DNA of 64,000 nt from Micromonospora ureilytica (GTDB lineage Bacteria > Actinomycetota > Actinomycetes > Mycobacteriales > Micromonosporaceae), in the NCBI RefSeq assembly GCF_015751765.1, contig NZ_JADOTX010000001.1, positions 2,542,001-2,606,000 on the forward strand, given 5' to 3'. The notes below the pieces were generated by a model that did no database searches, was not told where the DNA came from, and saw only the letters and a program-made list of their open reading frames with translations. The translations under genes and the position numbers were made by a program. This document shows, piece by piece, positions 64 through 12,316 of the stretch; the first letter of the stretch is position 1, and every line of letters starts with the position of its first letter.

Positions 64-696
64 GTGAGGGCCACGTTACGGCTACGCGCACTGGTCGCCG
101 TCCCCGGCACCGGGCCGGTGACCCTCGACGTTCCCGCCGGCACGCTCGCCGCCCTGGTGGCGCCGCCCCGCTTCGGCACGGCGGTCGCCCGGGTGCTGGC
201 CGGGCTCGCCCCGCCGGTGACCGGGCGCGTCCTCGTCGGCGACCGGGACGTCACCGGCCTGCCGCCGCCCCGCCGGCAGATCGGCTACGTGCCCGCCGGC
301 GGCGCGCTGCTGCCGCAGCTCACCGTGCGGCGCAACATCGAGTACGGCCAGCGCAAACGCGAACGGGTGCACGAGGTGGCCAACGACTGGACGGCCACCG
401 TGGTCGACCGGCTCGAGTTGGCGCTCTCGCTCGCCCTGCTGCCGCACCAGATCTCCGCCGCCCAGCGGTTCCGGGTGGCGCTCGCCCGAGCGGCGGCCTG
501 CCTGCCCGAGGTGCTGGTGGTCGACCTGCCGGCCGGCTCGGCGGGCGACAGCCGCCTCGGTGACCTGATGCCTCGACTCTCACCACCGGACGCCCCCGGC
601 GTGGCGGTGCTGGTCTGCACCGCCGACCCGGCCACCCTGGCCGAGATCCCGGTGCGGCACGAGCTGATCACCGAGCCGAGCGAGGCGCCCCGATGA
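64..696 (+). CDS. Degenerate ABC-type ATPase (probable pseudo-ATPase)
   Basis: The 210-residue protein keeps the ABC nucleotide-binding fold pattern of sugar importers, for example GRVLVGDRDVTGLPPPRRQIGYV (about residues 54-76) and RVALARA (137-143). Every catalytic motif is altered. The P-loop region reads APPRFGTAVARVLAGL (33-48) with no lysine. The Q-loop reads YVPAGG instead of xxFQxx. The signature is SAAQ instead of SGGQ. Walker B reads VLVVDLP, so the catalytic Glu is Leu155. The switch His is Ala187 (CTAD). It is therefore unlikely to hydrolyse ATP, and I infer a structural or regulatory role with the permease gene downstream. The stop overlaps the next start (ATGA). Start is uncertain: GTG 64 fits the fold; GTG 28 would add 12 residues. 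The upstream end of the operon lies outside the window. Confidence 0.8.
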   Translation: MRATLRLRALVAVPGTGPVTLDVPAGTLAALVAPPRFGTAVARVLAGLAPPVTGRVLVGDRDVTGLPPPRRQIGYVPAGGALLPQLTVRRNIEYGQRKRERVHEVANDWTATVVDRLELALSLALLPHQISAAQRFRVALARAAACLPEVLVVDLPAGSAGDSRLGDLMPRLSPPDAPGVAVLVCTADPATLAEIPVRHELITEPSEAPR

Positions 697-1973
697 GGCC
701 GGCCGCCCGAACGAGCCGTCGTACGCTGCTACGCGCCGCCGCTGCGGGCGCCACCGCCCTGGCCGCGGGCTGCTCCGGCGGGGCGCGGTCGGTGCAGGTC
801 GCGGTGGTCTGGAGCACCAGCGAACTGGACCGGTTCCGCGAGGTCGTCGCCGGCTACCCCGCCCCCGTGCAGGTGGTCAGCGCCGGCAACGACATCGACG
901 CGTTCCTGCGCGCCCGACACCTGGCCGGCACCAGCCCGGACGTGGCGATCCTGCCGCGCCCCGGCCTGGTCACCGAGTACGCCCAGCGCGGATGGCTGAG
1001 CCCGGTGCGCGGTTCCACCGAGTACGCCGTACCCGCCGGGCTGGGCGAGCTGCTGACGGCCGAGGGCGGCCAGCGCTACGGCGTCTGGGTCAAGGCGGCG
1101 CACAAGTCGCTGGTCTGGCACCTGCCCTCGGTGCTGCCCGTGCAGCCGGCCAACTGGGACGCGCTGGTCCGGCGTACCCAGGAGCTCGGCGCGCTCGCCC
1201 GGCGCGCCGGCGGGCCGGCACCCCTGGCCATCGGCGCCGCAGACGGCTGGGTGCTGACCGACTGGTTCGAGAACGTCCTGGCCGACGTGGCACCCGAGAG
1301 CTACAGCGCCCTCGCCCGAGCGGACGCCGACTGGCAGGGCAGACCGGTGCGCGACACGCTGGACCGGCTCGCCGGGCTCTGGAGCATCAACGGGGCGTTC
1401 GTCGGCGGCGGCCGTCGTGCCCTGCTCACCCAGTACGAGGAGTCGGTGATCCAGGTGGTGCACACGAAGCGGGCGGTGATGCTCGTCGGGGCCGACTTCA
1501 CCGCCGACGTCGCCGACCCGTTCCAGCGCGGCCCGGAGGCGCCTGTCACATTCCGGTTCCCGGGCGCCGAGCCGGGCGGCGGCCCACTGATCGTCGGCGG
1601 GGACGCGGCCGTGGCGTTCGCCGACGCCCGGGGCGGGGTCGAGCTGGTCGAGTGGCTCACCAGGGCCGACTCGTTCCAGCCGTGGCTGCGCGCCGGCGGC
1701 TACCTCTCGCCCAACACCAACGTCGCGATCGGCAGCTACCGGGACCGCGTCGGCCAGGGGCTCGCCGAGGAGATGCGGACTCCTGGCACCCTTCGTTTCG
1801 ACCTCTCCGACCAGTTGCCCGGCGCGTTCACCGGCTCGGACGGGGTCGGCATCTGGCGGATCATGCAGGGCTTCTTCGCCGACGTCACCGACGGGGTCCG
1901 CGCCAGCGAGGCGATCCGTCGGGCCACCGGCCTGCTCGCCGCGGCGGCCCGCAGCGCGGGGGGCGGCCGATGA
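693..1973 (+). CDS. Tat-exported lipoprotein, ABC solute-binding protein
   Basis: The 426-residue protein begins with a twin-arginine signal (SRRTLLR, residues 8-14), a short Ala/Gly-rich hydrophobic segment and a lipobox LAAGC, so Cys27 is the predicted lipidated residue. The body looks like a family 1 extracellular sugar-type solute-binding protein: it contains hinge-region features such as TSPDVAILPRPGLVTEYAQRG near residues 70-91 and a C-terminal ELVEWLTRADSFQPW segment. It should capture a solute outside the membrane for the permease fusion encoded immediately downstream. It overlaps both neighbours by 4 bases, which indicates translational coupling. The ligand cannot be read from the sequence; carbohydrate is the family default. 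Confidence 0.85.
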   Translation: MRPAARTSRRTLLRAAAAGATALAAGCSGGARSVQVAVVWSTSELDRFREVVAGYPAPVQVVSAGNDIDAFLRARHLAGTSPDVAILPRPGLVTEYAQRGWLSPVRGSTEYAVPAGLGELLTAEGGQRYGVWVKAAHKSLVWHLPSVLPVQPANWDALVRRTQELGALARRAGGPAPLAIGAADGWVLTDWFENVLADVAPESYSALARADADWQGRPVRDTLDRLAGLWSINGAFVGGGRRALLTQYEESVIQVVHTKRAVMLVGADFTADVADPFQRGPEAPVTFRFPGAEPGGGPLIVGGDAAVAFADARGGVELVEWLTRADSFQPWLRAGGYLSPNTNVAIGSYRDRVGQGLAEEMRTPGTLRFDLSDQLPGAFTGSDGVGIWRIMQGFFADVTDGVRASEAIRRATGLLAAAARSAGGGR

Positions 1974-3736
1974 GCCAGGTGCGGGTCCTCGGTGAGCTGG
2001 CGGTCCTCGACGACGTCGGCCCGGCCCGGCGGGGCCGGGCGTATCCGGCAGCCGGCGCGACGTCGGCCCTGCTGCTGCCGGCCGCGGTGCTGCTCGGCGG
2101 GCTGGTGCTGTGGCCGGTGCTGCGGACCATGCACGCCAGCGTCACCACCGACGGTCGCTGGGTCGGCGCGGCGCACTTCCGGACCGCGCTCGCCGCCCCG
2201 GGCACCGGCGCGGTGGTCGGCCGGACGGTCCTCTGGGCCCTGCTGGTGCCGGCGGTGGTGACGGCGCTGGGTTATCTGCTCGCCGCCGCGTCCCGCCGCT
2301 CCCAGGAGGGCGGGCTGGTCCGGTTGATCCTCCTGGTGCCGGTGGCGTTGCCGCTGGTCGTCACCGGGGTCACCTTCCGGCTGATGTACGACCCGGACCC
2401 GAGCCGGGGCCTGGCCACCCTGATCGCGACCCGACTGACCGGCCGTCCGGTCGAGGACGCGCCGCAGTTGCTCGGGCCGGGGATGGTCACCGTCGCGTTG
2501 ATGTCGGCGTTCGTCTGGGCCTGGGTCGGGTTGGCGGTGCTGGTCTTCCGGTCCGCACTGGACGCGGTGCCGCCGAGTCTCGCCGACGCGGTCCGCGCCT
2601 ACGGCGGTGGACGCCGCCATGTGCTGTGGGACGCACAGTGGCGGCCACTGCTGCTGCGGACGACAGCTGTGGTCTTCGCGTTGGTGGCGGTCGGCACCAG
2701 CCGCACGTTCGACCTCATCCTGGTGATGACCCCCGGTTCGGTCCGCGACGAGGCCTCCGTGCTGGCGCTGCGGATCTGGCAGACGTCCGGGGGCACCACC
2801 ACCGGCGACGGCGCCGCCCTCGGCGTGGTGTGGCTGGTGGCGGTCATCGGCGGCATCATGGTGGCCGCGCTCTTCGTCCGGCAGGCCTGGCCCCCGCCGC
2901 GCGTCGAGGCGGCACCGGAGCCCGCCCCGGTCGCCCCGCCCCGGCGGGTGTTCCGGCTGCTCGCTGCGGGTGCCGCGATCGCCTGGCTGGTGCCGCTGGC
3001 GGTGCTGGTCGCCACGTCGGCGCACGGCAGGGTGGACGCCGCCGCGCGCGGTTGGTGGTCCGCAGCGCCGAATGGCGAGTCGTACCGCAACCTGGTCACC
3101 GGCACGGAGCTGTGGCGCACGCTGGGCTTCACCCTGCTGCTGGCCACCGCGGTGACCGCCACGGTGCTGGTGGTCGCGCTGCTGGCCGCGTACCCGTTGG
3201 CCTGGTTGACCGGGCCGGCCGCGCAGGCCACCGGGCTGCTGCTGCTGGCGGCCAGCGTCGTGCCGATCCAGGTCATCGCCGGCCCGGTCAACGAGGTGCT
3301 GGGCCTGGTGCTCTCCTCCGGCACGGCTCAGGGCCTGGCCCTGGTGCACATCGCGCTGGGCGTGCCGTTCGCGGTGCTGGTGCTGCGTAACGCGTTCGCC
3401 GACCTGCCGGTCGAGCAGGTCCGCGACGCCCGGCTGGGTGGGCGCCGGTGGTGGCACACCCTGCGCCGGTTGGCCCGGCACAACCGGTCGGCGGTGGTGG
3501 CGGTGTCCGTGCTGGAGTTCGTCCAGGTCTGGAACGACCTGGTGGTGGGTCGGCTGTTCGGTGGACCGGGGGCGTCGCCGCTCGGGCCGTTCCTGGCCGA
3601 GCAGACCCGCAGCTTCGTGAGCAACAGTGGCGCGCTGGCCGCCAGCTCGGTGCTCGCCTCGGTGCTGCCGGTGGTGCTCGTGGTGCTCTCGCGGCGGCAC
3701 CTGGTCGCCGGGCTCGTCTCCGGGGGCGTCCGGTGA
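1970..3736 (+). CDS. Fused two-domain ABC permease (MalF-like + MalG-like)
   Basis: The 588-residue membrane protein reads as two binding-protein-dependent permease halves in one chain. The first half (about 30-310) has roughly six membrane segments and an EAA-like loop ADAVRAYGGGRRHVLW. A Pro-rich linker follows (PPPRVEAAPEPAPVAPPRR), then a second half (about 325-588) with about six segments and a degraded EAA-like loop EQVRDARLGGRRWWHTL. Sugar importers normally encode these halves as separate proteins. The EAA loops dock onto the ATPase, and here the candidate ATPase partner is itself degenerate. ATG 1970 overlaps the stop of the solute-binding protein gene. Open frame continues upstream of this start, but that extension is a shadow of the preceding gene. 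Substrate is unknown. Confidence 0.85.
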   Translation: MSQVRVLGELAVLDDVGPARRGRAYPAAGATSALLLPAAVLLGGLVLWPVLRTMHASVTTDGRWVGAAHFRTALAAPGTGAVVGRTVLWALLVPAVVTALGYLLAAASRRSQEGGLVRLILLVPVALPLVVTGVTFRLMYDPDPSRGLATLIATRLTGRPVEDAPQLLGPGMVTVALMSAFVWAWVGLAVLVFRSALDAVPPSLADAVRAYGGGRRHVLWDAQWRPLLLRTTAVVFALVAVGTSRTFDLILVMTPGSVRDEASVLALRIWQTSGGTTTGDGAALGVVWLVAVIGGIMVAALFVRQAWPPPRVEAAPEPAPVAPPRRVFRLLAAGAAIAWLVPLAVLVATSAHGRVDAAARGWWSAAPNGESYRNLVTGTELWRTLGFTLLLATAVTATVLVVALLAAYPLAWLTGPAAQATGLLLLAASVVPIQVIAGPVNEVLGLVLSSGTAQGLALVHIALGVPFAVLVLRNAFADLPVEQVRDARLGGRRWWHTLRRLARHNRSAVVAVSVLEFVQVWNDLVVGRLFGGPGASPLGPFLAEQTRSFVSNSGALAASSVLASVLPVVLVVLSRRHLVAGLVSGGVR

Positions 3737-6117
3737 CCGGGCCGGGTGGCGCGCGCGGTGGCTCCCGTTGGCCGGCGCTCATCGCGATCGGCGGCGTGGT
3801 CGGCAGCATCCTCGCCAACGTGGCCAGCAACCTGGCCGGCAATCTCCTCTCCGAGCTGGCGGCGAGCGTGCTCGGGCCGGTGACCATCGTCCTGGCCGCC
3901 AGCGGGGTCGTGGGTTACGTGGTGTACGAGGTGCGCCGCCGCCGAGCCGGCCGCGAGGTCGGCCCCGAACCGACGGATGTGCTCACCACACCGGCCACCG
4001 GGGCCCCCACCCTGCCCTACACGGCCGAGTTCACCGGTCGCGGCGAGCACGTCGACGCGGTGGTCGGTCTGCTGGCGCGCGAGCACGCAGTGGCGGTGCT
4101 GGGCCGACGCGCTGTGGGCACCTCCGCGTGCGCGGTGCAGGCCGCGAACCAGTGCCGGGAGGACTTCCCCGACGGGCAATATTATCTGGACCTGCGGCGG
4201 CGGGGCCGACCCCGCTCGGCCCGGCAGGTGCTCACCGCGTTGGCCCGGATCCTGGGCACCGCCCCGCCGACCTCAGGCCGGCCGGACGCGCTCGCCGCCG
4301 CCGCCGACGCGCTGCGCGGCCAGCTCGACGGTCGCAAGATCCTGCTGGTGCTGGACAACGTCGACCGTCCCGACCAGGTCCGGCCACTGTTGCCGCCCAC
4401 CGCGCGTACCTGCCGCCTGCTCCTCGCCGGCGGTCCGGCGCTTGTCGGTCTGGAGGGTGTGGTCGCGCACTGGATCGCCGAACCGGGCACGTCCGAGGCG
4501 GTGGGGCTGTTCGCGACGGCGGGCGGGGCCGCGCCCGCCGCCCGGGTCCGTCGCGCCGACCCGCGCACCGACCCGGCGGTACGCGACATCGTCGACCTGT
4601 GCGGGCGGCAGCCGCGCACCGTCCGCGCGCTCGGTTATCGCACGGCCCAGCACGGCTGGCGGCACTCCGACGTGTTGGACGCGCTGCGCCGTGCGGTGCA
4701 GACGCCACCGCACCAGCGGCTCGCCGTCTCACCGGCGGCCCGCCTGGTCACCGAACGCGACATCGCGTACCGGGCGCTACCCCGCCAGGCTCGACGGCTG
4801 TACCGGCTGATGTCGCTGGTCCCCGCCCCGGTGGACCGGCCCACCATCGCCGCGCTGGCCGGGCGGCACCCCGAGCTGGTGACCGCTCTGCTCGACCGGT
4901 TGGCCGCCGCGGCGTTCGTGGTCGGCGCGCCCGGCGACCGGTACGAGATCCGTCCCCTGCTGGCCGGCAGCGCCCGGCTGCACCTGCGGGACGCGGATCC
5001 GGCCCGGGCCCGGGTCGCCGCGCAGGCCCGGCTGACCCGGCACCTGGCCCGCCGAGCCGAACGGCACGCGGCCAACCTGGCGGTGCTCGGCTCCCCACCG
5101 GACCGGGAGTGGTCCCTGCCGCTGGACGACGACCCGTACGGCTGGTTCGACCTGCACCAGGAGCTGCTGCTGGCGGTGGTGCGGGTGCCGGCCGGCGCGA
5201 AGGAGACCCTGCCCCGCCGGGTCCGCCGGTGGTGGTTCCGGCTGGCCGTGGCGCTGTGCGGGTGGCTGGCGTACGCCGAGCGGCTCGACGAGTGGGAGCA
5301 GGTCTGCCGCACCGTGCTGGCCACCCCGACCGCCGACGACCGCCCGGAGATCGCCGGGTGGGCGCACAACGAGCTGGGGGTGCTGCGCCGACGCCGGCAC
5401 GACCCCCAGGGGGCGGCCGCCGCTCTCACCCTCGCGGTCAACGAGCGGGGGCGGCGGGGCAACGCCCAGGCGCGGATGAACCTCGGCCTGGCCCTGCTCG
5501 ACCTGGGGCAGCTCGACGACGCGGTGGAGCACCTGGAGATGTCCCGCCGGCACCGCTCCGGCGCCGACCGTGCCGGCCACGCCCTCACCGAGCTGGGCCT
5601 GGGCGCGGCCCAGCTGGCCCGGGGAGAACCGGACACCGCGCACCACCACCTGGTGCGGGCGGCCAACACGTTCCGGTCGGTAGGCGACGCGCGCGGGTAC
5701 GCTGCGGCGCTGACCAACCTGGTGCTGGTGCACGCGGCGCTCGGCGAGCACCTGGACGCCGCCCAGGCGTGGCGCGCCGCGCTCCGCGAGTACGAGTCGG
5801 TCAACGATCCGACCAGCCGGGCGACGGCACTGCTCAACGCCGGGGCGACTCTGCTGAGCAGCACCCCGGGGCAGGCACGGACGGCGTACGAGCTGCTGGC
5901 CGAGAGCCGCCGGCTGCGCGAGGAGACGCGGCCGACCGCCGGGCTGGCCCGCACCCTGCTCTACCTGGGTGACGCCTGCGCCGCGCTGGGCGACCGGGCC
6001 GACGCGCGGCGGCACTGGGCGGACGCGGCGGCGGTGGCCGAGGAGGTCGCCGACGCCCAGGGGTTGGCCGCCGCCGACGGCCGACTGGAGGACGACGCCG
6101 ACAGCCGCGTGACGTAG
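3733..6117 (+). CDS. Membrane-anchored NB-ARC/STAND-like protein with TPR repeats, Walker A lysine lost
   Basis: The 794-residue protein starts at GTG overlapping the permease stop. Hydrophobic segments lie near residues 14-70, followed by a basic stretch RRRR. The NB-ARC signature FTGRGEHVDAVVGLL opens a STAND NTPase-like region. Its Walker A position reads GRRAVGTS (124-131), so the invariant Lys is Thr130. Walker B KILLVLDNVD is intact (Asp208). The usual TSR-type sensor motif reads LLLAGG. The C-terminal half (about 560-790) is built of TPR-like helices, for example AQARMNLGLALLDLGQLDDA. STAND proteins are signalling switches; loss of the Lys suggests weak or no nucleotide exchange. Co-transcription with an ABC system suggests it senses or regulates that transporter, which is inference. 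Confidence 0.8.
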   Translation: MTGPGGARGGSRWPALIAIGGVVGSILANVASNLAGNLLSELAASVLGPVTIVLAASGVVGYVVYEVRRRRAGREVGPEPTDVLTTPATGAPTLPYTAEFTGRGEHVDAVVGLLAREHAVAVLGRRAVGTSACAVQAANQCREDFPDGQYYLDLRRRGRPRSARQVLTALARILGTAPPTSGRPDALAAAADALRGQLDGRKILLVLDNVDRPDQVRPLLPPTARTCRLLLAGGPALVGLEGVVAHWIAEPGTSEAVGLFATAGGAAPAARVRRADPRTDPAVRDIVDLCGRQPRTVRALGYRTAQHGWRHSDVLDALRRAVQTPPHQRLAVSPAARLVTERDIAYRALPRQARRLYRLMSLVPAPVDRPTIAALAGRHPELVTALLDRLAAAAFVVGAPGDRYEIRPLLAGSARLHLRDADPARARVAAQARLTRHLARRAERHAANLAVLGSPPDREWSLPLDDDPYGWFDLHQELLLAVVRVPAGAKETLPRRVRRWWFRLAVALCGWLAYAERLDEWEQVCRTVLATPTADDRPEIAGWAHNELGVLRRRRHDPQGAAAALTLAVNERGRRGNAQARMNLGLALLDLGQLDDAVEHLEMSRRHRSGADRAGHALTELGLGAAQLARGEPDTAHHHLVRAANTFRSVGDARGYAAALTNLVLVHAALGEHLDAAQAWRAALREYESVNDPTSRATALLNAGATLLSSTPGQARTAYELLAESRRLREETRPTAGLARTLLYLGDACAALGDRADARRHWADAAAVAEEVADAQGLAAADGRLEDDADSRVT

Positions 6118-6157
6118 GTCGCTCGGGTTGGTCGGTGGCACGGCTCTGGGAGACTCT

Positions 6158-6781
6158 GTGATCGTGGACGCGCTCTCGGTACGGGGACTCAGCCGCAACT
6201 TCGGCAACCTGGTCGTGCTCGACGATGTGAGCTTCTCGCTCCCGGCGGGCCGGATCGCGGTGGTGCTGGGGCCCAACGGCAGCGGCAAGACCACCCTGCT
6301 GCGCTGTGTCGTCGGCGCCGACCGACCGGACTCGGGCGAGGTGCTGGTGCAGGGCCGACGGGCCGACGAGACCGATCCTCAGGTGCGGGCGCTGGTGGCG
6401 GCCGCCCTGGACGACATCGACTTCTTCCCCGACCTGTCCGTGGTCGAGCACCTGGAGCTGGTCGCGTACGCCCACGGGGGTGACGCCGAGCCGGTCGAGG
6501 AGGTCCTCGCCGAGCTGGGTCTGGAGCCGGCCCGCGACCAGCTGCCGGTGACGCTGTCCAGCGGGCAGCGTCGCCGACTGGCGCTGGCGTCCTGTTTCGT
6601 CCGGCCACGCCGGGTGCTGATCCTGGACGAGCCCGAGCAGCGGCTGGACGTCCGCGGGCGACAGTGGCTCGCCGACCGACTGCTCCGGGAACGGGCGGCG
6701 GGTACGGCCGTGCTGCTGGCCTCGCACGACCCGGAGCTGATCGACGCGGTGGTCGACGAGCGCATCGAGATCGGCAAGTGA
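6158..6781 (+). CDS. ABC transporter ATP-binding protein
   Basis: This 207-residue ATPase has all motifs intact: Walker A GPNGSGKTT, signature LSSGQ, Walker B VLILDEPEQRLD and switch His in ASHDPEL. It is compact and lacks extra domains, as in exporter-type or uncharacterised two-component ABC systems. GTG 6158 is preferred over an upstream TTG (6128) because a GGGAG ribosome-binding site sits 5 bases before it. The stop overlaps the start of the next gene (GTGA), which encodes its likely membrane partner. The intact motifs contrast with the degenerate ATPase at 64-696, so decay is specific to that protein and is not a property of the region. Confidence 0.88.
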   Translation: MIVDALSVRGLSRNFGNLVVLDDVSFSLPAGRIAVVLGPNGSGKTTLLRCVVGADRPDSGEVLVQGRRADETDPQVRALVAAALDDIDFFPDLSVVEHLELVAYAHGGDAEPVEEVLAELGLEPARDQLPVTLSSGQRRRLALASCFVRPRRVLILDEPEQRLDVRGRQWLADRLLRERAAGTAVLLASHDPELIDAVVDERIEIGK

Positions 6782-8199
6782 CCGCCGCGCCGGCCACTAT
6801 CGCCGACACGCCGGCCGGGGTGCCGACCGCCCGTCAGGTGCGGACGCACCTGCGCAAGGCCCGCAGCCGGCACCACGACCATTCGCTCGGCGACGTGCTC
6901 GGCGACGCGTACGTCATGGTCCTGTTCGTGGGCATGTACGGCTGGTTCGCGATCAGCGCCAGCCGCGACCTGCTGGACTCCCCCACCGTGGGGCGGGCCG
7001 AGCCGGGCGTGCGGTGGTGGCTGGCGGTGGCCGCGCTGCTGGCCGGCGCGGGGCTCGCCTGGCGTGGTCTGCGCGCGCTGGGCCCGCTGCTGGTCACCCC
7101 GGCGACGCAGAGCTGGGCGACCAGCGCTCCGATCGACCGGCGGGCCTGGTTGGCGCCGCGTTTCGTCCTGTTGATGCTGGGCGCGGCGGCCGGCACCGCA
7201 GCGCTCGGAGTGGCCGTGGCGGCGCTCGGCGGGGTCACCGACCTGTCCGCCCTGGGCTGGGCGGCGGCGGCCGGCGCGGGGTGGGGCGCCGCCGCGCTGG
7301 CGCTCAGCGTCGTCGCCCAGAGCAGCCGATCGGGGCGACGCTGGCCGACAGTGGTCGGGGCGGTGCCGATGGTGGCGGCGGCCGTCATCACCGCCCTGGT
7401 GGTGCTCGTCGGTCGCCTCGGCGACGGGCTGTCCCGGCCGGGGACGACGCCGACCGTCGCGTTGTTCGCCGCTGCGGTGCCCCTCGCGGGCGTGGGCATG
7501 ATCCTCGCGGTACGCGCGCTGCCCCGGGTCGACCGGGCCACCCTGACCACCGGCGCGCAGTTCGCCAACGCCGCCGCCACGGCCACCATCCTGCTGGATC
7601 CGAGCCTGCTCGCCGGCCTCGTGGAGAGCCGCCGCTGGCGCCGGATCGGCCGGGTTCGCAGCCGCCGGTTCCGGCCCGGCCCCGGCTGGTGGGCGCTGCT
7701 CCAGGCCGACGTACGCCGGCTGCGCCGCCACCCGAGCGCCGTGCTGATCTGGGCGGCGCTGATCGGGGTGCAGTACGCTGCCGCGCTCGCCCTGCCCGGG
7801 TTGGCCGGGGCCGCGCAGGTGGTGTTCGCGTACCTCGCCGCCAACCGGCTGACCGGCGGTCTGCGGTCGGTCAGCCGCTCACCCGGGCTACGCCGGGCGC
7901 TCGGCGGCAGCGACAACCTGCTGCGCGGGATCCACGTGGTGGTGCCGGCCGTCGGCGCGGGCGTGTGGTGGTTGCTGACCCTGCCGACCGTCGACCCGGG
8001 GCCGGCCTGGCTGGCGCCGACGCTGGCGCTGGGGGTGGTGGCCGCCGCGTTCCGGGCCGGCACCCGCCCGCCGATCGACTACGGCGGCGCGACTGTCAAC
8101 ACACCGTTCGGCATGATCCCGGTCGACCTGATGCGGCAGGGGTCACGAGGGCCGGCGCTGCTCGCCGTGCTGGTCCTCGTCCAGCTGTTCCTGGGCTGA
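6778..8199 (+). CDS. Polytopic membrane protein, partner of the preceding ABC ATPase
   Basis: The 473-residue protein has about ten or more hydrophobic segments (for example around 46-62, 78-98, 128-150, 155-180, 195-220, 232-250, 320-350, 385-410 and 455-473) and no recognisable soluble domain. It resembles large actinobacterial ABC-2-like membrane proteins of the DUF6297 type; that family name is from memory. Translational coupling with the intact ATPase suggests the two form an ABC transporter of unknown substrate. A basic N-terminal stretch (RTHLRKARSRHH) is probably cytoplasmic. It ends 24 bases before a convergent gene, with no clear terminator hairpin between them. Confidence 0.75.
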   Translation: MTAAPATIADTPAGVPTARQVRTHLRKARSRHHDHSLGDVLGDAYVMVLFVGMYGWFAISASRDLLDSPTVGRAEPGVRWWLAVAALLAGAGLAWRGLRALGPLLVTPATQSWATSAPIDRRAWLAPRFVLLMLGAAAGTAALGVAVAALGGVTDLSALGWAAAAGAGWGAAALALSVVAQSSRSGRRWPTVVGAVPMVAAAVITALVVLVGRLGDGLSRPGTTPTVALFAAAVPLAGVGMILAVRALPRVDRATLTTGAQFANAAATATILLDPSLLAGLVESRRWRRIGRVRSRRFRPGPGWWALLQADVRRLRRHPSAVLIWAALIGVQYAAALALPGLAGAAQVVFAYLAANRLTGGLRSVSRSPGLRRALGGSDNLLRGIHVVVPAVGAGVWWLLTLPTVDPGPAWLAPTLALGVVAAAFRAGTRPPIDYGGATVNTPFGMIPVDLMRQGSRGPALLAVLVLVQLFLG

Positions 8200-8223: not shown

Positions 8224-9696
8224 TCAGCGGTCGCCGAGCGCGGCGGCGACAGCGGCGACGCCGTCCTCGATCTCGGTGGGCGTCCGGGCCGCGTAGCCGA
8301 GCACGAGGCCGGGCCGGTAGGGACGCTGGCAGTGCCAGGACAGCGGTTGCACCTTCACCCCGCGCGCCAGCGTCGCCGCGGCCAGCTCGGTGTCGACCAC
8401 GGCATCGTCCAGCGTGATCATCAGGTGCAGACCGGCGGCCGCGCCGTGCACCGTCGCCGACGGCAACGCGCGGGCCAGCGCGGCGATCATGGCGTCCCGT
8501 CGGCGGATGTGTCGACGGCGCAGCAGCCGCAGATGCCGCTCGAAGGCGCCGGAGGTCATCAACTCCGCCAGCACCAGTTGCGGTAGCACGGCGTTGCCCA
8601 GGTCGGCGTTGCGCTTGGCGGCCACCACCGCCTCGCGCAGTCGCGGCGGCACGAGGAGCCAGCCGACCCGCAGGGCGGGGGCGAGCAGTTTGGAGACGCT
8701 GCCGGCGTAGCAGACCTGCTCGGGCAGCAGACCGCGTAGCGCCGGCACCGGAGGACGGTCGTAGCGGTGCTCGGCGTCGTAGTCGTCCTCGATGATCAGA
8801 CCGCCGGCCCGGGCCCAGGCGACGAGTTGGCGGCGACGGTCACCGTCGAGCACCACGCCGGTCGGGAACTGGTGCGCGGGGGTGAGCATCACGGCCGGTG
8901 TGCCGCTGGCGGCCAGCTCGTCGACCCGCAGCCCGGCGTCGTCGACGGTGATCGGCGGGGTGTCCATCCGCCAGTTGTTCAGGTGCTGCCGTACCCCGAG
9001 CGAGCCCGGGTCCTCGACCGCGATGCGGTCGACGCCGGCAGCGGTGAGCGCCTGGGCGAGCAGCCCGAGCGCCTGGGAGACGCCGGCCACGATGATCACG
9101 TCGGCGGGGTCGACGCTGATGCCGCGATTGCGGGCCAGCCAGGCGGCGACGGCCTGCCGCAGCGCGGGCGTGCCAACCGGGTCGCCGTAGCCGAGGTCGG
9201 CCGCGGCGAGGTGGCGCAGCACGGTCCGTTCGGCGCGCAGCCAGTCCGCGCGCGGGAAGGCGGCCAGATCGGGTACGCCGGGCGTCAGGTCGATTGTCGC
9301 GTGCGCCGCGCGTACCGCGTCGAAGATGTCGGTGCCCGGTGTCGGTGGGAAGGTCGTGACCGGTGCCGGCGCGGCGGCCGGGGCGGATGTGGGCGTGGCC
9401 GGCGCGGCGACGACCACAGTGCCGGCCCGGCCCCGACCGGCGACACGCCCCTCCTCGGTGAGGCGCTGGTACGCCTCGGTGACCACGCCCCGGGAGACGC
9501 CGAGGTCGGCGGCGAGCACCCGGGTGGGGGGCAACCGGTCACCGACCGGCACCCGGCCCTCGGCGATGGCCTGCCGCAGCCTGTCGGTCAGCCAGTCGGC
9601 GCGCCCGCCCGGCGCCGCGTCGCTGACGGTCAGGTGCAGGAAGTCTGACCCGGCCGATATGGACCTCTCGGACGCCGTCGCTTTGGCTCTGCCCAT
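8224..9696 (-). CDS. MocR/PdxR-type GntR-aminotransferase regulator
   Basis: The 490-residue protein joins an N-terminal GntR winged helix (about 30-100, with RLPPTRVLAADLGVSRGVVTEAYQRL) to a fold-type I aminotransferase domain (about 130-485). Lys336 in the SVSK motif is the predicted pyridoxal-phosphate lysine, and an Asp in EDDYDAEHRY is the usual cofactor contact. MocR proteins are DNA-binding regulators that sense PLP or amino-acid-derived ligands. It is divergent from a LysE exporter gene with 62 bases between the two starts, so it probably controls that exporter and itself. Start ATG 9696 gives a full-length protein; a shorter start cannot be excluded. Confidence 0.9.
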   Translation of the reverse strand: MGRAKATASERSISAGSDFLHLTVSDAAPGGRADWLTDRLRQAIAEGRVPVGDRLPPTRVLAADLGVSRGVVTEAYQRLTEEGRVAGRGRAGTVVVAAPATPTSAPAAAPAPVTTFPPTPGTDIFDAVRAAHATIDLTPGVPDLAAFPRADWLRAERTVLRHLAAADLGYGDPVGTPALRQAVAAWLARNRGISVDPADVIIVAGVSQALGLLAQALTAAGVDRIAVEDPGSLGVRQHLNNWRMDTPPITVDDAGLRVDELAASGTPAVMLTPAHQFPTGVVLDGDRRRQLVAWARAGGLIIEDDYDAEHRYDRPPVPALRGLLPEQVCYAGSVSKLLAPALRVGWLLVPPRLREAVVAAKRNADLGNAVLPQLVLAELMTSGAFERHLRLLRRRHIRRRDAMIAALARALPSATVHGAAAGLHLMITLDDAVVDTELAAATLARGVKVQPLSWHCQRPYRPGLVLGYAARTPTEIEDGVAAVAAALGDR

Positions 9697-9758: not shown

Positions 9759-10370
9759 GTGACCATCCCGTTCCTGATCACCACGCTGATCGTGGTGGTC
9801 ACCCCCGGCACCGGGGTGATCTTCACGCTCTCCGCCGGCCTGTCGCGGGGTGCGCGGGCCGGAGTGCTGGCCGCGTTCGCCTGCACGCTGGGGACGTTGC
9901 CGCACCTGCTGGCCGCGATGACCGGGCTGGCCGCGCTGATGCAGACCAGCGCCGCGGCGTTCGAGACCGTCCGCTACCTCGGCGTCGGCTACCTGCTCTA
10001 CCTGGCCTGGTCCATGGCGAGGGACCGCGACGCCTTCGCGGTGACGACCGACGCCCCGCCCCGATCGGCGATCCGGGTGATCGTCTCCGGGGTGCTCGTC
10101 AACCTGCTCAACCCGAAACCGACGATGTTCTTCGTCGCGTTCCTGCCACAGTTCGTGGACACCACGGCACCGGGCTCGACCCGGGCGATGCTCGGCTGCG
10201 GCGCGGTGTTCATGCTGCTCACCTTCGTGGTGTTCAGCGGCTACGGCGTCTTCGCGGCCCGGGTACGCGACCGGGTGCTGACCCGACCCCGGGTCACCGA
10301 CTGGCTGCGCCGATCCGCCGCCGGCACATTCGTCGCGCTCGGCGTGACCCTCGCCCTCACCGAACGATAG
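9759..10370 (+). CDS. LysE/RhtB-family amino-acid exporter
   Basis: The 203-residue membrane protein has the LysE/RhtB pattern: TPGTGVIFTLSAGLSRGARAG near the N-terminus, LGVGYLLYLAW near 70-80, NLLNPKPTMFFVAFLPQF near 118-135 and about six membrane helices. The family exports amino acids and related small molecules. GTG 9759 is chosen because GGAGGA lies five bases upstream; an earlier GTG at 9717 lies inside the divergent promoter region. The MocR regulator is divergent and the B3/4 protein gene follows after 7 bases, forming a likely amino-acid stress module. Confidence 0.88.
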   Translation: MTIPFLITTLIVVVTPGTGVIFTLSAGLSRGARAGVLAAFACTLGTLPHLLAAMTGLAALMQTSAAAFETVRYLGVGYLLYLAWSMARDRDAFAVTTDAPPRSAIRVIVSGVLVNLLNPKPTMFFVAFLPQFVDTTAPGSTRAMLGCGAVFMLLTFVVFSGYGVFAARVRDRVLTRPRVTDWLRRSAAGTFVALGVTLALTER

Positions 10371-10377
10371 GACCACA

Positions 10378-11109
10378 GTGCACTTCGAACACTCTCCGCA
10401 GCTTCGCGACGCGTACCCCGACCTGGTCGCCGGCGTGGTGCAGGTCGCCGGGATCACCGCCACCGCCGACGTGACAGGACGGACGGCCGATCATCTCGCC
10501 GACGCGCGACGGCGGTTGGCCGGCGGCGCCGAGAGCGGGTTCCCGGAGATCCAGGCGTGGCGGCGGGCGTACGCGGCGATGGGGCTGCGGCCCACCAGGT
10601 ACCGGTGCGCCGCCGAGGCCCTGCTGCGTCGGCTGCGCCTGGACGGCGAGCTGCCCCGGGTGCACCCGCTCGTCGATCTCTGCAACGCCATCTCGGCCGC
10701 GTACGCCATCCCGGTCGCGGTGCTCGACCTGGACCGGGTCGACGGCGACCTGGTGGTCCGGCCGGCACACGGCGACGAGGCGTACCTGAGTTTCACGGGC
10801 GACACCGAACATCCCGAGCCGGGCGAGGTGACCTTCGTCGACTCCGCCGGGCGGGCACACGCCCGACGGTGGACGAACCGGCAGAGCGGCTGGTCGGCCG
10901 TGCGGTCGGGCACCTCGTCGGTGCTGATCGTCGCCGAGGCGCTGCACCCGGGTGGCGAGCCGGCCGTGACCCGGCTGGTCGCCGACCTCGTCACGGAGCT
11001 GACCGACGGATGGGCCGCCCCGACGGCCGCCGCGGTGCTCACCGCCGCCGCGCCCCGTTTCCGCACCCCGACGGCAGGTGGTCAGGCGGTGTCGCCGGGC
11101 ACCAGATGA
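10378..11109 (+). CDS. B3/B4 tRNA-binding-domain protein
   Basis: The 243-residue protein matches the free-standing B3/4 domain found in the beta subunit of phenylalanyl-tRNA synthetase, where it hydrolyses mischarged tyrosyl-tRNA. Seen here: a central WRRAYAAMGLRPTRYRCAAEALLRR segment (about 61-85) with the family's GLxPxxxRxSxExL-like pattern, and HPLVDLCNAISAAYAIPVAVLDLDR (about 96-120). Free-standing copies are proposed trans-editing or amino-acid sensing proteins. It starts at GTG seven bases after the LysE gene, so they are probably co-transcribed. Its last 28 bases overlap the end of the convergent MBL-fold gene. Confidence 0.8.
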   Translation: MHFEHSPQLRDAYPDLVAGVVQVAGITATADVTGRTADHLADARRRLAGGAESGFPEIQAWRRAYAAMGLRPTRYRCAAEALLRRLRLDGELPRVHPLVDLCNAISAAYAIPVAVLDLDRVDGDLVVRPAHGDEAYLSFTGDTEHPEPGEVTFVDSAGRAHARRWTNRQSGWSAVRSGTSSVLIVAEALHPGGEPAVTRLVADLVTELTDGWAAPTAAAVLTAAAPRFRTPTAGGQAVSPGTR

Positions 11110-11684
11110 CGGTAACCGGGGATCGTCTCGGCGAACCAGCCGGCGACGCTGGCCAGGCCGCGTTCGTTGAGCTGCGCGTCGTGGATCGGGTACGCCGCCG
11201 CCGCGCCCACGGCGCCGGCGAACCGGATCGCCTCGTCGAGGCGCAGCCAGGACCCCTGGGCCGGGACGAGCAGGGTGCGCACCGGCTCGTCCGGCACGTG
11301 CAGCGCGTCACCCGGGTGGTAGAGCTCGTCGCCGATCAGGTAGCCGAGGTTCGGGCAGTCGGGCTGCCCCTGGTGGATCGCGGCGTGCCGGCCGCCGTGC
11401 GCGCTGACCGGAATGCCGGCGGCCGTGAACCGTTGCCCCGCGCGCACCCGGGTCACCGGCAGCGGGGCGAGATCCGGCAGTCGGGCGCCCTCCGGGGCGT
11501 ACACGGGGACGCCGAGACCGGCGAGCCGCAACACGTCCACGTGGTCGGTGTGCTCGTGGGTGACCAGGACGGCGTCCGCGCCGACCAGGGCCCGCGGCTC
11601 GCTCCACGTTCCCGGGTCGACGACCAGGACCCCGCCGTCGTGCTCGACCCGCACGCACGAGTGGGTGAATCGGGTGATCCGCAC
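11082..11684 (-). CDS. Metallo-beta-lactamase-fold hydrolase (UlaG/YtnP-like small form)
   Basis: The 200-residue protein has the MBL zinc-ligand pattern: THEHTDHVD (about residues 43-51), a downstream HGGRHAAIH and HPGDALH. It begins with RITRFTHSCVRVEHDGGVLVVDPG, typical of UlaG-like L-ascorbate-6-phosphate lactonase relatives. The substrate cannot be inferred. GTG 11684 is chosen because the beta-strand pattern begins right after it. It follows the small membrane protein gene (stop at 11708) on the same strand with a 23-base gap, so the two may be co-transcribed. Confidence 0.8.
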   Translation of the reverse strand: MRITRFTHSCVRVEHDGGVLVVDPGTWSEPRALVGADAVLVTHEHTDHVDVLRLAGLGVPVYAPEGARLPDLAPLPVTRVRAGQRFTAAGIPVSAHGGRHAAIHQGQPDCPNLGYLIGDELYHPGDALHVPDEPVRTLLVPAQGSWLRLDEAIRFAGAVGAAAAYPIHDAQLNERGLASVAGWFAETIPGYRHLVPGDTA

Positions 11685-11707
11685 CCCGCCGACGGTACGC
11701 CCGTCGG

Positions 11708-12316
11708 TCAGCGTCGCCGCCCGGCCGACATCCGCACGATGTACACGAACTGCACGGCGAACGCCACGACCGCGACCAGCACCCCGACCACTACCGTCAC
11801 CACGCCCCCGGCCCCGACGGTCGCGGCCACCAGGGCGATGCCGAGCCCGCTCAGCACGGCGTTGACCGCGCCCACGAGTGCCGCAGTGGTCAGCAGGAAC
11901 TCCCATCGCCCCGGTCGGGTGCCGACCAGGTTCCAGGCGGTGCTCATGGCGTCGTCGGCCACCACCGCGTCGGCGAAGAAGTCGTGCTCGCCGGCGAGCT
12001 GGTGTTGGTAGTAGGCCCGGATGCGCTGGATCCGCCGCAGGTCCAACGAGTTCTCGACGGTGGTCTCCACCAGCCGCAGAAACGTCAGCACCCCGATGAT
12101 GACCAGCGTCGGCAGCACCGCGGCCAGGTACGGCCGGACCAGCTTGTCGTTGCTGGCGACGAAGCCGAGGCCGATCAGCGCCGCCGACAGGACGGACAGG
12201 AAGATCGTGGCGCGGCCGGTGGCCTCGGCGATGGTGCCGGCGCGGGACGTCTGCAACGCGTAGTGCTCGGTGGTCAGCACGGTGAGGAGCGCCTGCTCGC
12301 GTTCGCTCTCGTCCAC
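11708..12316 (-). CDS. Small four-helix membrane protein, unknown function
   Basis: I do not recognise a characterised family. The 202-residue protein has a cytoplasmic-looking N-terminus (MDESEREQALLTVLTTEHYA), two membrane helices (about 35-55 and 66-85), a charged helical middle (LDLRRIQRIRAYYQHQLAGEHDFF) and two further helices (about 138-160 and 165-192). A 2+2 helix layout with a cytosolic helical insert recalls SLATT or PycTM-like membrane effectors, but the resemblance is architectural only. It is divergent from the TM/PLD-like gene at 12389 with 72 bases between starts, so the two may share regulation. Confidence 0.65.
   Translation of the reverse strand: MDESEREQALLTVLTTEHYALQTSRAGTIAEATGRATIFLSVLSAALIGLGFVASNDKLVRPYLAAVLPTLVIIGVLTFLRLVETTVENSLDLRRIQRIRAYYQHQLAGEHDFFADAVVADDAMSTAWNLVGTRPGRWEFLLTTAALVGAVNAVLSGLGIALVAATVGAGGVVTVVVGVLVAVVAFAVQFVYIVRMSAGRRR

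Follow-up and report, generated by a model that had tools for sequence, protein, structure and literature searches.

What does an operon built like a sugar importer do once its ATPase has lost the residues that handle ATP? This question is raised by four plus-strand genes at the start of a 64,000-nucleotide stretch of Micromonospora ureilytica DNA (contig NZ_JADOTX010000001.1, positions 2,542,001 to 2,606,000; here, the window). The genes lie at 64-696, 693-1973, 1970-3736, and 3733-6117; all frames are open, each gene overlaps the next by four bases, and the first starts with GTG at position 64. They encode an ATP-binding cassette (ABC) ATPase-like protein (psABC), a solute-binding protein (SBP), a fused permease (PERM), and a STAND/TPR protein. 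The reading that we prefer, and consider probable by a modest measure, is that the operon specifies a conserved membrane complex that arose from a sugar-type ABC importer and acts as a non-hydrolyzing, non-pumping ligand receptor, signaling via a membrane-anchored STAND/TPR protein.

64 to 696, + strand: psABC, a MalK-type ABC ATPase fold of 210 amino acids (aa) without the Walker A Lys, Q-loop Gln, catalytic Glu, and switch His
693 to 1973, + strand: SBP, a Tat-type lipoprotein and sugar-type solute-binding protein of 426 aa
1970 to 3736, + strand: PERM, two importer permeases joined into a single chain of 588 aa
3733 to 6117, + strand: STAND/TPR protein of 794 aa with a hydrophobic N terminus, a NOD module, and a TPR superhelix

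Nucleotide-binding sites of the ATPase-like and STAND proteins

The psABC protein (64-693) matches Pfam ABC_tran with 48.9 bits (cut-off, 25). Its Walker A motif reads APPRFG-TA, without Lys; Ala78 occupies the Q-loop position, SAAQ the signature, Leu155 the position after the Walker B Asp, and Ala187 the switch, and none of the residues of a functional importer ATPase (Lys, Gln, LSGGQ glycines, Glu, and His) is present. The Walker A Lys, Q-loop Gln, catalytic Glu, and switch His are each found in 0/46 psABC proteins (rows that include many near relatives and are not 46 independent events) versus 10/10 intact MalK-type ATPases of sister importers. The two signature glycines, each present in 10/10 sister ATPases, occur in 0/46 and 3/46 psABC proteins, respectively. 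These losses are far beyond chance. Retained are the Walker B acidic residue (Asp in 42 and Glu in 4 of the 46) and, one turn past the P-loop, an Arg at the position of MalK R47 (46/46); in MalFGK2, the Arg at this position of MalK pairs with the EAA Glu. The Walker A Lys position is occupied by Gly at four loci (L087, L088, L089, and L145; L denotes a locus and G a genome), and the residue is wholly absent from the other 42 aligned psABC proteins. Locus L080, on the same contig as L026, was excluded throughout, and L081, with a broken frame, was excluded from the ATPase columns. Loci L088, L089, and L145 hold a divergent version of the operon with a longer psABC (~390 aa in L089), in which the STAND match to the family model starts only ~390 bases after the overlapping start.

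160 to 183, + strand: psABC Walker A motif in decayed form (APPRFG-TA), which drifts within the family
277 to 324, + strand: former Q-loop and permease-docking cleft (QIGYVPAGGALLPQLT), the best conserved of six psABC motif windows measured

Motif windows of a 19-member psABC alignment (mean entropy, 1.34) were ranked by conservation among windows of the same length, with percentile 0 for the most conserved. The former Q-loop/docking cleft ranked at 0.02, Walker A at 0.63, and the D-loop at the 92nd percentile. A control set of 20 canonical ATPases with a comparable spread (mean entropy, 1.46) gave 0.02 for Walker A and 0.35 for the Q-loop. This cleft is where the coupling helices dock in MalK, according to the available part of PMC7658222. 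To judge from the alignments, the ATP site of psABC is drifting, whereas conservation is highest at its permease-docking cleft, which argues that psABC itself probably occupies the docking site. In the structure model, the ABC fold is intact (pLDDT, the predicted local distance difference test, 88), and the nearest solved folds are importer ATPases (2it1 and AlgS), with LptB third.

The two lost P-loops differ, a point that goes beyond an earlier first-pass annotation made from the sequence letters: the ABC one has drifted, and the STAND one lies in a best-conserved window.

3760 to 3936, + strand: N-terminal hydrophobic segments followed by RRRR in the STAND/TPR protein, a predicted membrane anchor (hydropathy only; a low-confidence part of the model)
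4102 to 4125, + strand: altered P-loop GRRAVGTS (Lys replaced by Thr130), fixed in the family
4339 to 4380, + strand: Walker B region ILLVLDNVDRPDQV (including LVLDNV), kept

Among 40 STAND proteins, the Walker A Lys position holds Thr in 39, Ser in 1, and Lys in none, and the Walker B Asp is present in all (40/40). The same genome contains 12 other STAND-like matches, of which 11 were read, and all 11 keep GK[TS]. The P-loop window ranks at percentile 0.00, as does a window before the TPRs, and one TPR window is also very conserved. Because few windows of the protein are conserved as well as the one around the P-loop, the site is, on alignment evidence, fixed and reshaped rather than drifting. 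Pfam recognizes TPR families and a weak AAA_22 in this protein, and the AlphaFold2 (AF2) model (pLDDT, 82) has a NOD module and a TPR superhelix, with residues 1-101 mostly of low confidence. Its nearest PDB fold is 6mfv, a STAND protein with TPRs (template modeling [TM] scores of 0.36/0.44 over several domains), followed by Apaf-1. By hydropathy only, hydrophobic segments followed by an Arg-rich stretch open 11/11 aligned proteins. A second STAND-like gene lies ~2 kb past the converted STAND gene in G048 (L075, 1-2652, - strand; 395 bits with the family model); its P-loop is intact (GMGGVGKSS), and the gene is possibly closely related to the ancestor.

Taken with its patchy distribution, the NLR-like STAND fold and hydrophobic N terminus could also suit a defense or cell-death module, with membrane segments at the effector position and the importer-like part as the trigger. 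However, STAND switches use the P-loop Lys, which is absent here, and PADLOC returned for the four operon proteins one generic TPR match (STAND) and nothing for the other three, that is, no match to a described antiphage defense system beyond that one. We regard this explanation as highly improbable. As for what the first-pass annotation had read directly, all of it stands: every residue that it named as missing from the ATPase-like protein (including the catalytic Glu, replaced by Leu155, and the switch His, replaced by Ala187) is missing, within an open frame and a predicted intact ABC fold; GRRAVGTS and LVLDNV bear out its Thr130 in place of the STAND Walker A Lys and its intact Walker B; and a Tat lipoprotein SBP and a fused permease do lie between the two proteins, linked by 4-base overlaps.

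Binding protein and fused permease

The SBP scores slightly below the Pfam cut-offs for SBP_bac_8 (22.5; cut-off, 27) and SBP_bac_1 (21.8; cut-off, 26). Its twin Arg and lipobox Cys are invariant (19/19 aligned), and the PDB entries that match it best by profile bind sugars; despite the Pfam scores, it is an exported sugar-type solute-binding protein as in ABC importers. Compared with the SBPs of sister importers, 51 columns are conserved at 90% in both groups and 7 differences are fixed (L002, L006, and L013 entered neither this comparison nor the count of retained SBP residues given below, nor did the low-scoring SBP of L139 enter the 51-column count). The retained core common to the sister importers comprises Lys-Ser, Trp, and Asp-Gly-Trp-x-Leu-Thr-Asp.

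1233 to 1265, + strand: GAADGWVLTDW motif of SBP, with the DGWxLTD core common to canonical sister importers
2585 to 2608, + strand: first coupling (EAA) loop of PERM, DAVRAYGG, with Glu replaced by Asp in 38/40 and the loop Gly kept in 38/40
3422 to 3442, + strand: second coupling (EAA) loop of PERM, RDARLGG, with Glu replaced by Arg in 39/40 and the loop Gly kept in 38/40

PERM matches Pfam BPD_transp_1 in two stretches. The loop Asp is present in 0/40 first loops and 1/40 second loops. The sister permeases have an acidic residue at the EAA position in 24/24 first-loop rows and 20/21 second-loop rows, tallies that include second or partial permease rows of L099, L103, L106, and L109. In neither of its halves does PERM have the EAA coupling loop of an importer permease in unaltered form. 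The stronger statement that these loops are wholly lost was rejected; the exact columns show that the glycines and one acidic residue are retained.

These loops bear on the question of whether the operon still transports. The SBP and fused permease could form an importer that is energized by a multitask MalK/MsiK-type ATPase encoded elsewhere, with psABC and STAND regulating assembly only. Multitask ATPases that serve several sugar importers are known (MsiK; available part of PMC7658222), nine matches to a MalK-type query were found in the genome at E <= 1e-40, and many of the sister importers lack an ATPase gene next to them. However, Arg stands in place of the acidic EAA residue of the sisters in 39/40 second loops, the loop Asp is nearly absent (0/40 and 1/40), and psABC, with its docking cleft kept best of all, probably sits at the docking site itself. 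The first-pass annotation had offered an ATPase in trans as an alternative to a ligand-sensing complex: the former is possible in principle, given the nine matches, but is disfavored by the altered coupling loops, above all the second one. The non-hydrolyzing nature that it proposed for the complex is well supported at the sequence level. Continued import appears unlikely to us.

Distribution, selection, and descent from sugar importers

A psABC scan of GTDB species genomes yielded 40 loci, of which 25, all named Micromonospora, have the order psABC-SBP-PERM-STAND as far as the contig reaches (the contig ends before STAND in L002 and L006 and inside STAND in L020). Fifteen loci (L027 to L041) represent ordinary ABC matches with no partner gene in the flanking DNA examined. 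The psABC matches in 12 Micromonospora genomes are 92 to 97% identical. We then considered 200 Micromonosporaceae genomes, in which SBP, STAND (E <= 1e-50), and psABC (E <= 1e-25) were searched separately. STAND was found in 28 genomes from 11 genera and psABC in the same 28 plus G035. STAND lies on a separate, fragmentary contig in G089 and G199 and is missing from the DNA examined at L002, L006, and L085; G035, G050, G070, and G086 hold more divergent versions with a fused permease and STAND. In a class-wide search (296 genomes, four candidates scored in each), only the window itself gave a match to the fused permease that was full length and in a single frame. Another 49 genomes matched, nearly all of them through the second permease half only; in three, the match spanned both halves, with an internal stop. 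The ten neighborhoods taken from this search contained no STAND match. At the three successive junctions, an in-frame start overlaps the preceding stop by four bases in 47/47, 45/47, and 42/44 cases. The four genes are co-inherited and probably translationally coupled, and the retention of the overlaps at nearly all junctions suggests that the four proteins are made in balanced amounts.

Median ratios of nonsynonymous to synonymous substitution (dN/dS; NG86 method, 22 to 25 Micromonospora sequences, GC bias uncorrected) were 0.24 for psABC, 0.36 for SBP, 0.21 for PERM, and 0.25 for STAND, calculated from PERM and STAND rows of at least 80% length (L002 PERM and L020 STAND were among those dropped) and from pairs with dS between 0.1 and 1.5. 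The first-pass annotation had reasoned that the operon would simply be decaying if this copy alone were altered. The losses turn out to be fixed across the family, the four genes co-occur, and all four dN/dS values, a measurement that it had also suggested, lie well below 1. Decay after loss of function would account for the broken frames at two loci, namely, the SBP of L013 (in pieces at about 10582-11905) and the psABC of L081 (about 10061-10755), each through mutation or sequencing error, and for the stops inside the matches of a few genomes. However, open frames, junction overlaps, and low dN/dS extend over many species and genera, and the losses are shared and fixed. The probability that we assign to decay is negligible, and it was rejected for the family as a whole.

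The relatives of the operon (22 family loci, L090 to L111; eight loci from the class-wide search; and L146) combine an SBP with two separate permeases and are ordinary importers. An intact MalK-type ATPase adjoins the SBP and permeases in ten of these sister loci. STAND-like matches near sister importers occur only at L109 and L111, several kilobases away, and the one scanned (L109) is a SARP regulator. In an SBP tree of 57 rows, the 24 converted operons fall on one side of a branch with support of 100/99; the tree program flagged L087, L078, and the outgroup for long branches and some rows for uneven letter composition. No order of residue losses is claimed, since support is weak (83/34) for how the lineages branch at the base of the converted clade. 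When residues conserved in 95% or more of the sister rows are considered, the fraction kept is 0.67 in SBP (44 versus 31 rows), 0.52 and 0.59 in the permease halves (40 versus 22 and 19 rows), and 0.37 in the ATPase (46 versus 10 rows), a rough comparison in that the control rows for the ATPase are smaller in number and resemble one another more. Among 10 open reading frames (ORFs) scanned next to sister importers, one encodes a GH13 alpha-amylase and the other matching ORFs are of unrelated function. This amylase gene (L094, 3563-5527, - strand) adjoins a canonical sister importer and gives a weak hint of alpha-glucosides as the ancestral ligand.

Directly downstream of the operon in the window (6128-8199, + strand) are genes for an intact ABC ATPase and then a DUF6297 membrane protein, a pair that lies ~1.6 kb further away in L008 and was not found in the flanking DNA examined of L021 to L026. 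We rejected this pair as operon members, as it stands beside the operon only in part of Micromonospora. A WYL-type regulator gene (named by eye) ends ~90 bases upstream of psABC on the same strand (L001, 6943-7971, immediately before the window) and stays adjacent to psABC in most of the Micromonospora loci L002 to L024. In a smaller dN/dS set, this upstream WYL-like gene has a value of 0.165 and DUF6297 a value of 0.26. Further downstream in the window (8224-9696, - strand), a gene resembles, by eye, one for a MocR-type regulator that combines a GntR part with an aminotransferase part. Judged from the listing of flank ORFs, the widely shared ones are apparently antisense or out-of-frame shadows of the operon, and the rest are common only to Micromonospora loci.

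A putative ligand receptor and its relation to known systems

The pattern of kept and lost parts, together with the precedent of MalK and MalT, suggests a ligand-sensing receptor that passes its signal to the STAND protein. A dedicated receptor is favored because the ATPase has lost its chemistry but keeps its docking surface and because STAND is predicted to be anchored. In such a receptor, the ligand-loaded SBP would dock on the permease, the permease would change shape upon docking, and psABC would relay this change to the STAND protein held at the membrane, whose TPR part would then bind or release a cytosolic partner. The second coupling loop is charge-reversed; psABC may for this reason dock on the first permease half only, and the second half may meet STAND. 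Nucleotide, if bound at all, would be a structural ligand in the STAND P-loop and not fuel. Assembled into one scheme, the importer would have become a receptor with SBP as the sensor, an asymmetric permease as the transmitter, the dead ATPase as an adaptor, and the lysine-less, anchored STAND protein as the output, with no ATP spent; this detailed version is put forward tentatively, as a plausible possibility.

Several observations weigh against a receptor of this kind. MalK-type ATPases are encoded elsewhere in the genome (the nine matches mentioned above), and psABC, at 210 aa, is too short to include the MalK C-terminal domain. Among the ten close sister ATPases alone, the Q-loop (0.17) is better kept than Walker A (0.26), and both hardly vary (entropy, 0.46), so this control does not reproduce the contrast between the two motifs. 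In the smaller dN/dS set, the value for psABC (0.17) exceeds that for the intact neighboring ABC ATPase (0.10); on these rates, psABC is constrained, somewhat less than an active ATPase. The distribution is patchy, with STAND in 15 of the 38 Micromonospora genomes of the set. No fifth conserved partner gene across genera was seen in the flank ORF listing of the neighborhoods, and the Pfam scan recognized no effector or DNA-binding domain in the STAND protein.

Several of the same features could be read without any signaling. A scaffold or gated pore for envelope organization or facilitated diffusion would fit the loss of all ATP chemistry residues, the partly kept permease and sugar-type SBP core, the predicted membrane anchoring of STAND, and its very conserved TPR window. 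Such a passive structure leaves unexplained, however, why a NOD module whose P-loop region is strictly fixed has been retained along with its Walker B and why all 28 genomes that have a close psABC also have STAND. We consider it rather unlikely. If the operon is indeed a receptor, it represents a natural experiment that separates sensing from transport, in which the ATPase, the coupling loops, and STAND have all lost key residues and the ligand-binding core and docking surface are largely kept. It would carry the principle known from MalK and MalT over to a dedicated receptor and provide a small system for studying how an NLR-like protein reads importer conformation and whether STAND proteins can signal without the P-loop lysine. 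We found no such importer-derived STAND receptor in the open-access literature, among the matches listed (titles and abstract openings).

ABC importers are defined by ATP-driven pumping. With the type I carbohydrate importers (MalEFGK2 and LpqY-SugABC), the operon has in common a lipoprotein sugar-type SBP, importer permease domains, and a MalK-type ATPase fold; it differs in that the catalytic residues are lost, the permeases fused, the coupling loops altered, the ATPase shortened, and a STAND protein added. The NOD region of that protein matches the PDB chains 8k60 and 8jke of AfsR, an AfsR-type NOD/TPR regulator, by profile. Its matches to the NCBIfam models for AfsR, HaaT, and FxSxx TPR proteins are weak (109.5 of 1430, 108.2 of 1125, and 26.2 of 300 bits of the cut-off, respectively), and unlike these proteins it has no recognized SARP domain and no P-loop Lys. 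A link to ribosomally synthesized and posttranslationally modified peptides (RiPPs) via HaaT/FxSxx was rejected, the scores being far below the cut-off.

Two systems offer parallels in function. GerAB of the spore germination receptors (GerAA/AB/AC) has an APC-superfamily fold and not that of an ABC importer, and Ger receptors include no ABC ATPase or STAND part. The likeness lies in the use of a transporter fold as a nutrient receptor, as described in the available part of PMC8617281. The maltose regulon of Escherichia coli comes closer in its components, pairing an importer ATPase subunit with a STAND protein that has a superhelical-repeat sensor. According to the available part of PMC10427625, MalFGK2 pumps, and when idle it holds the STAND activator MalT, which carries a DNA-binding effector domain, at the membrane via MalK and releases it on transport. 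Compared with MalFGK2-MalT as described there, a MalT-like DNA-binding effector domain was not recognized by Pfam in the STAND protein of the window, both nucleotide sites of the operon are without Lys, the STAND protein is predicted to be membrane anchored, and what ties the importer-like and STAND parts together is gene linkage and overlapping junctions.

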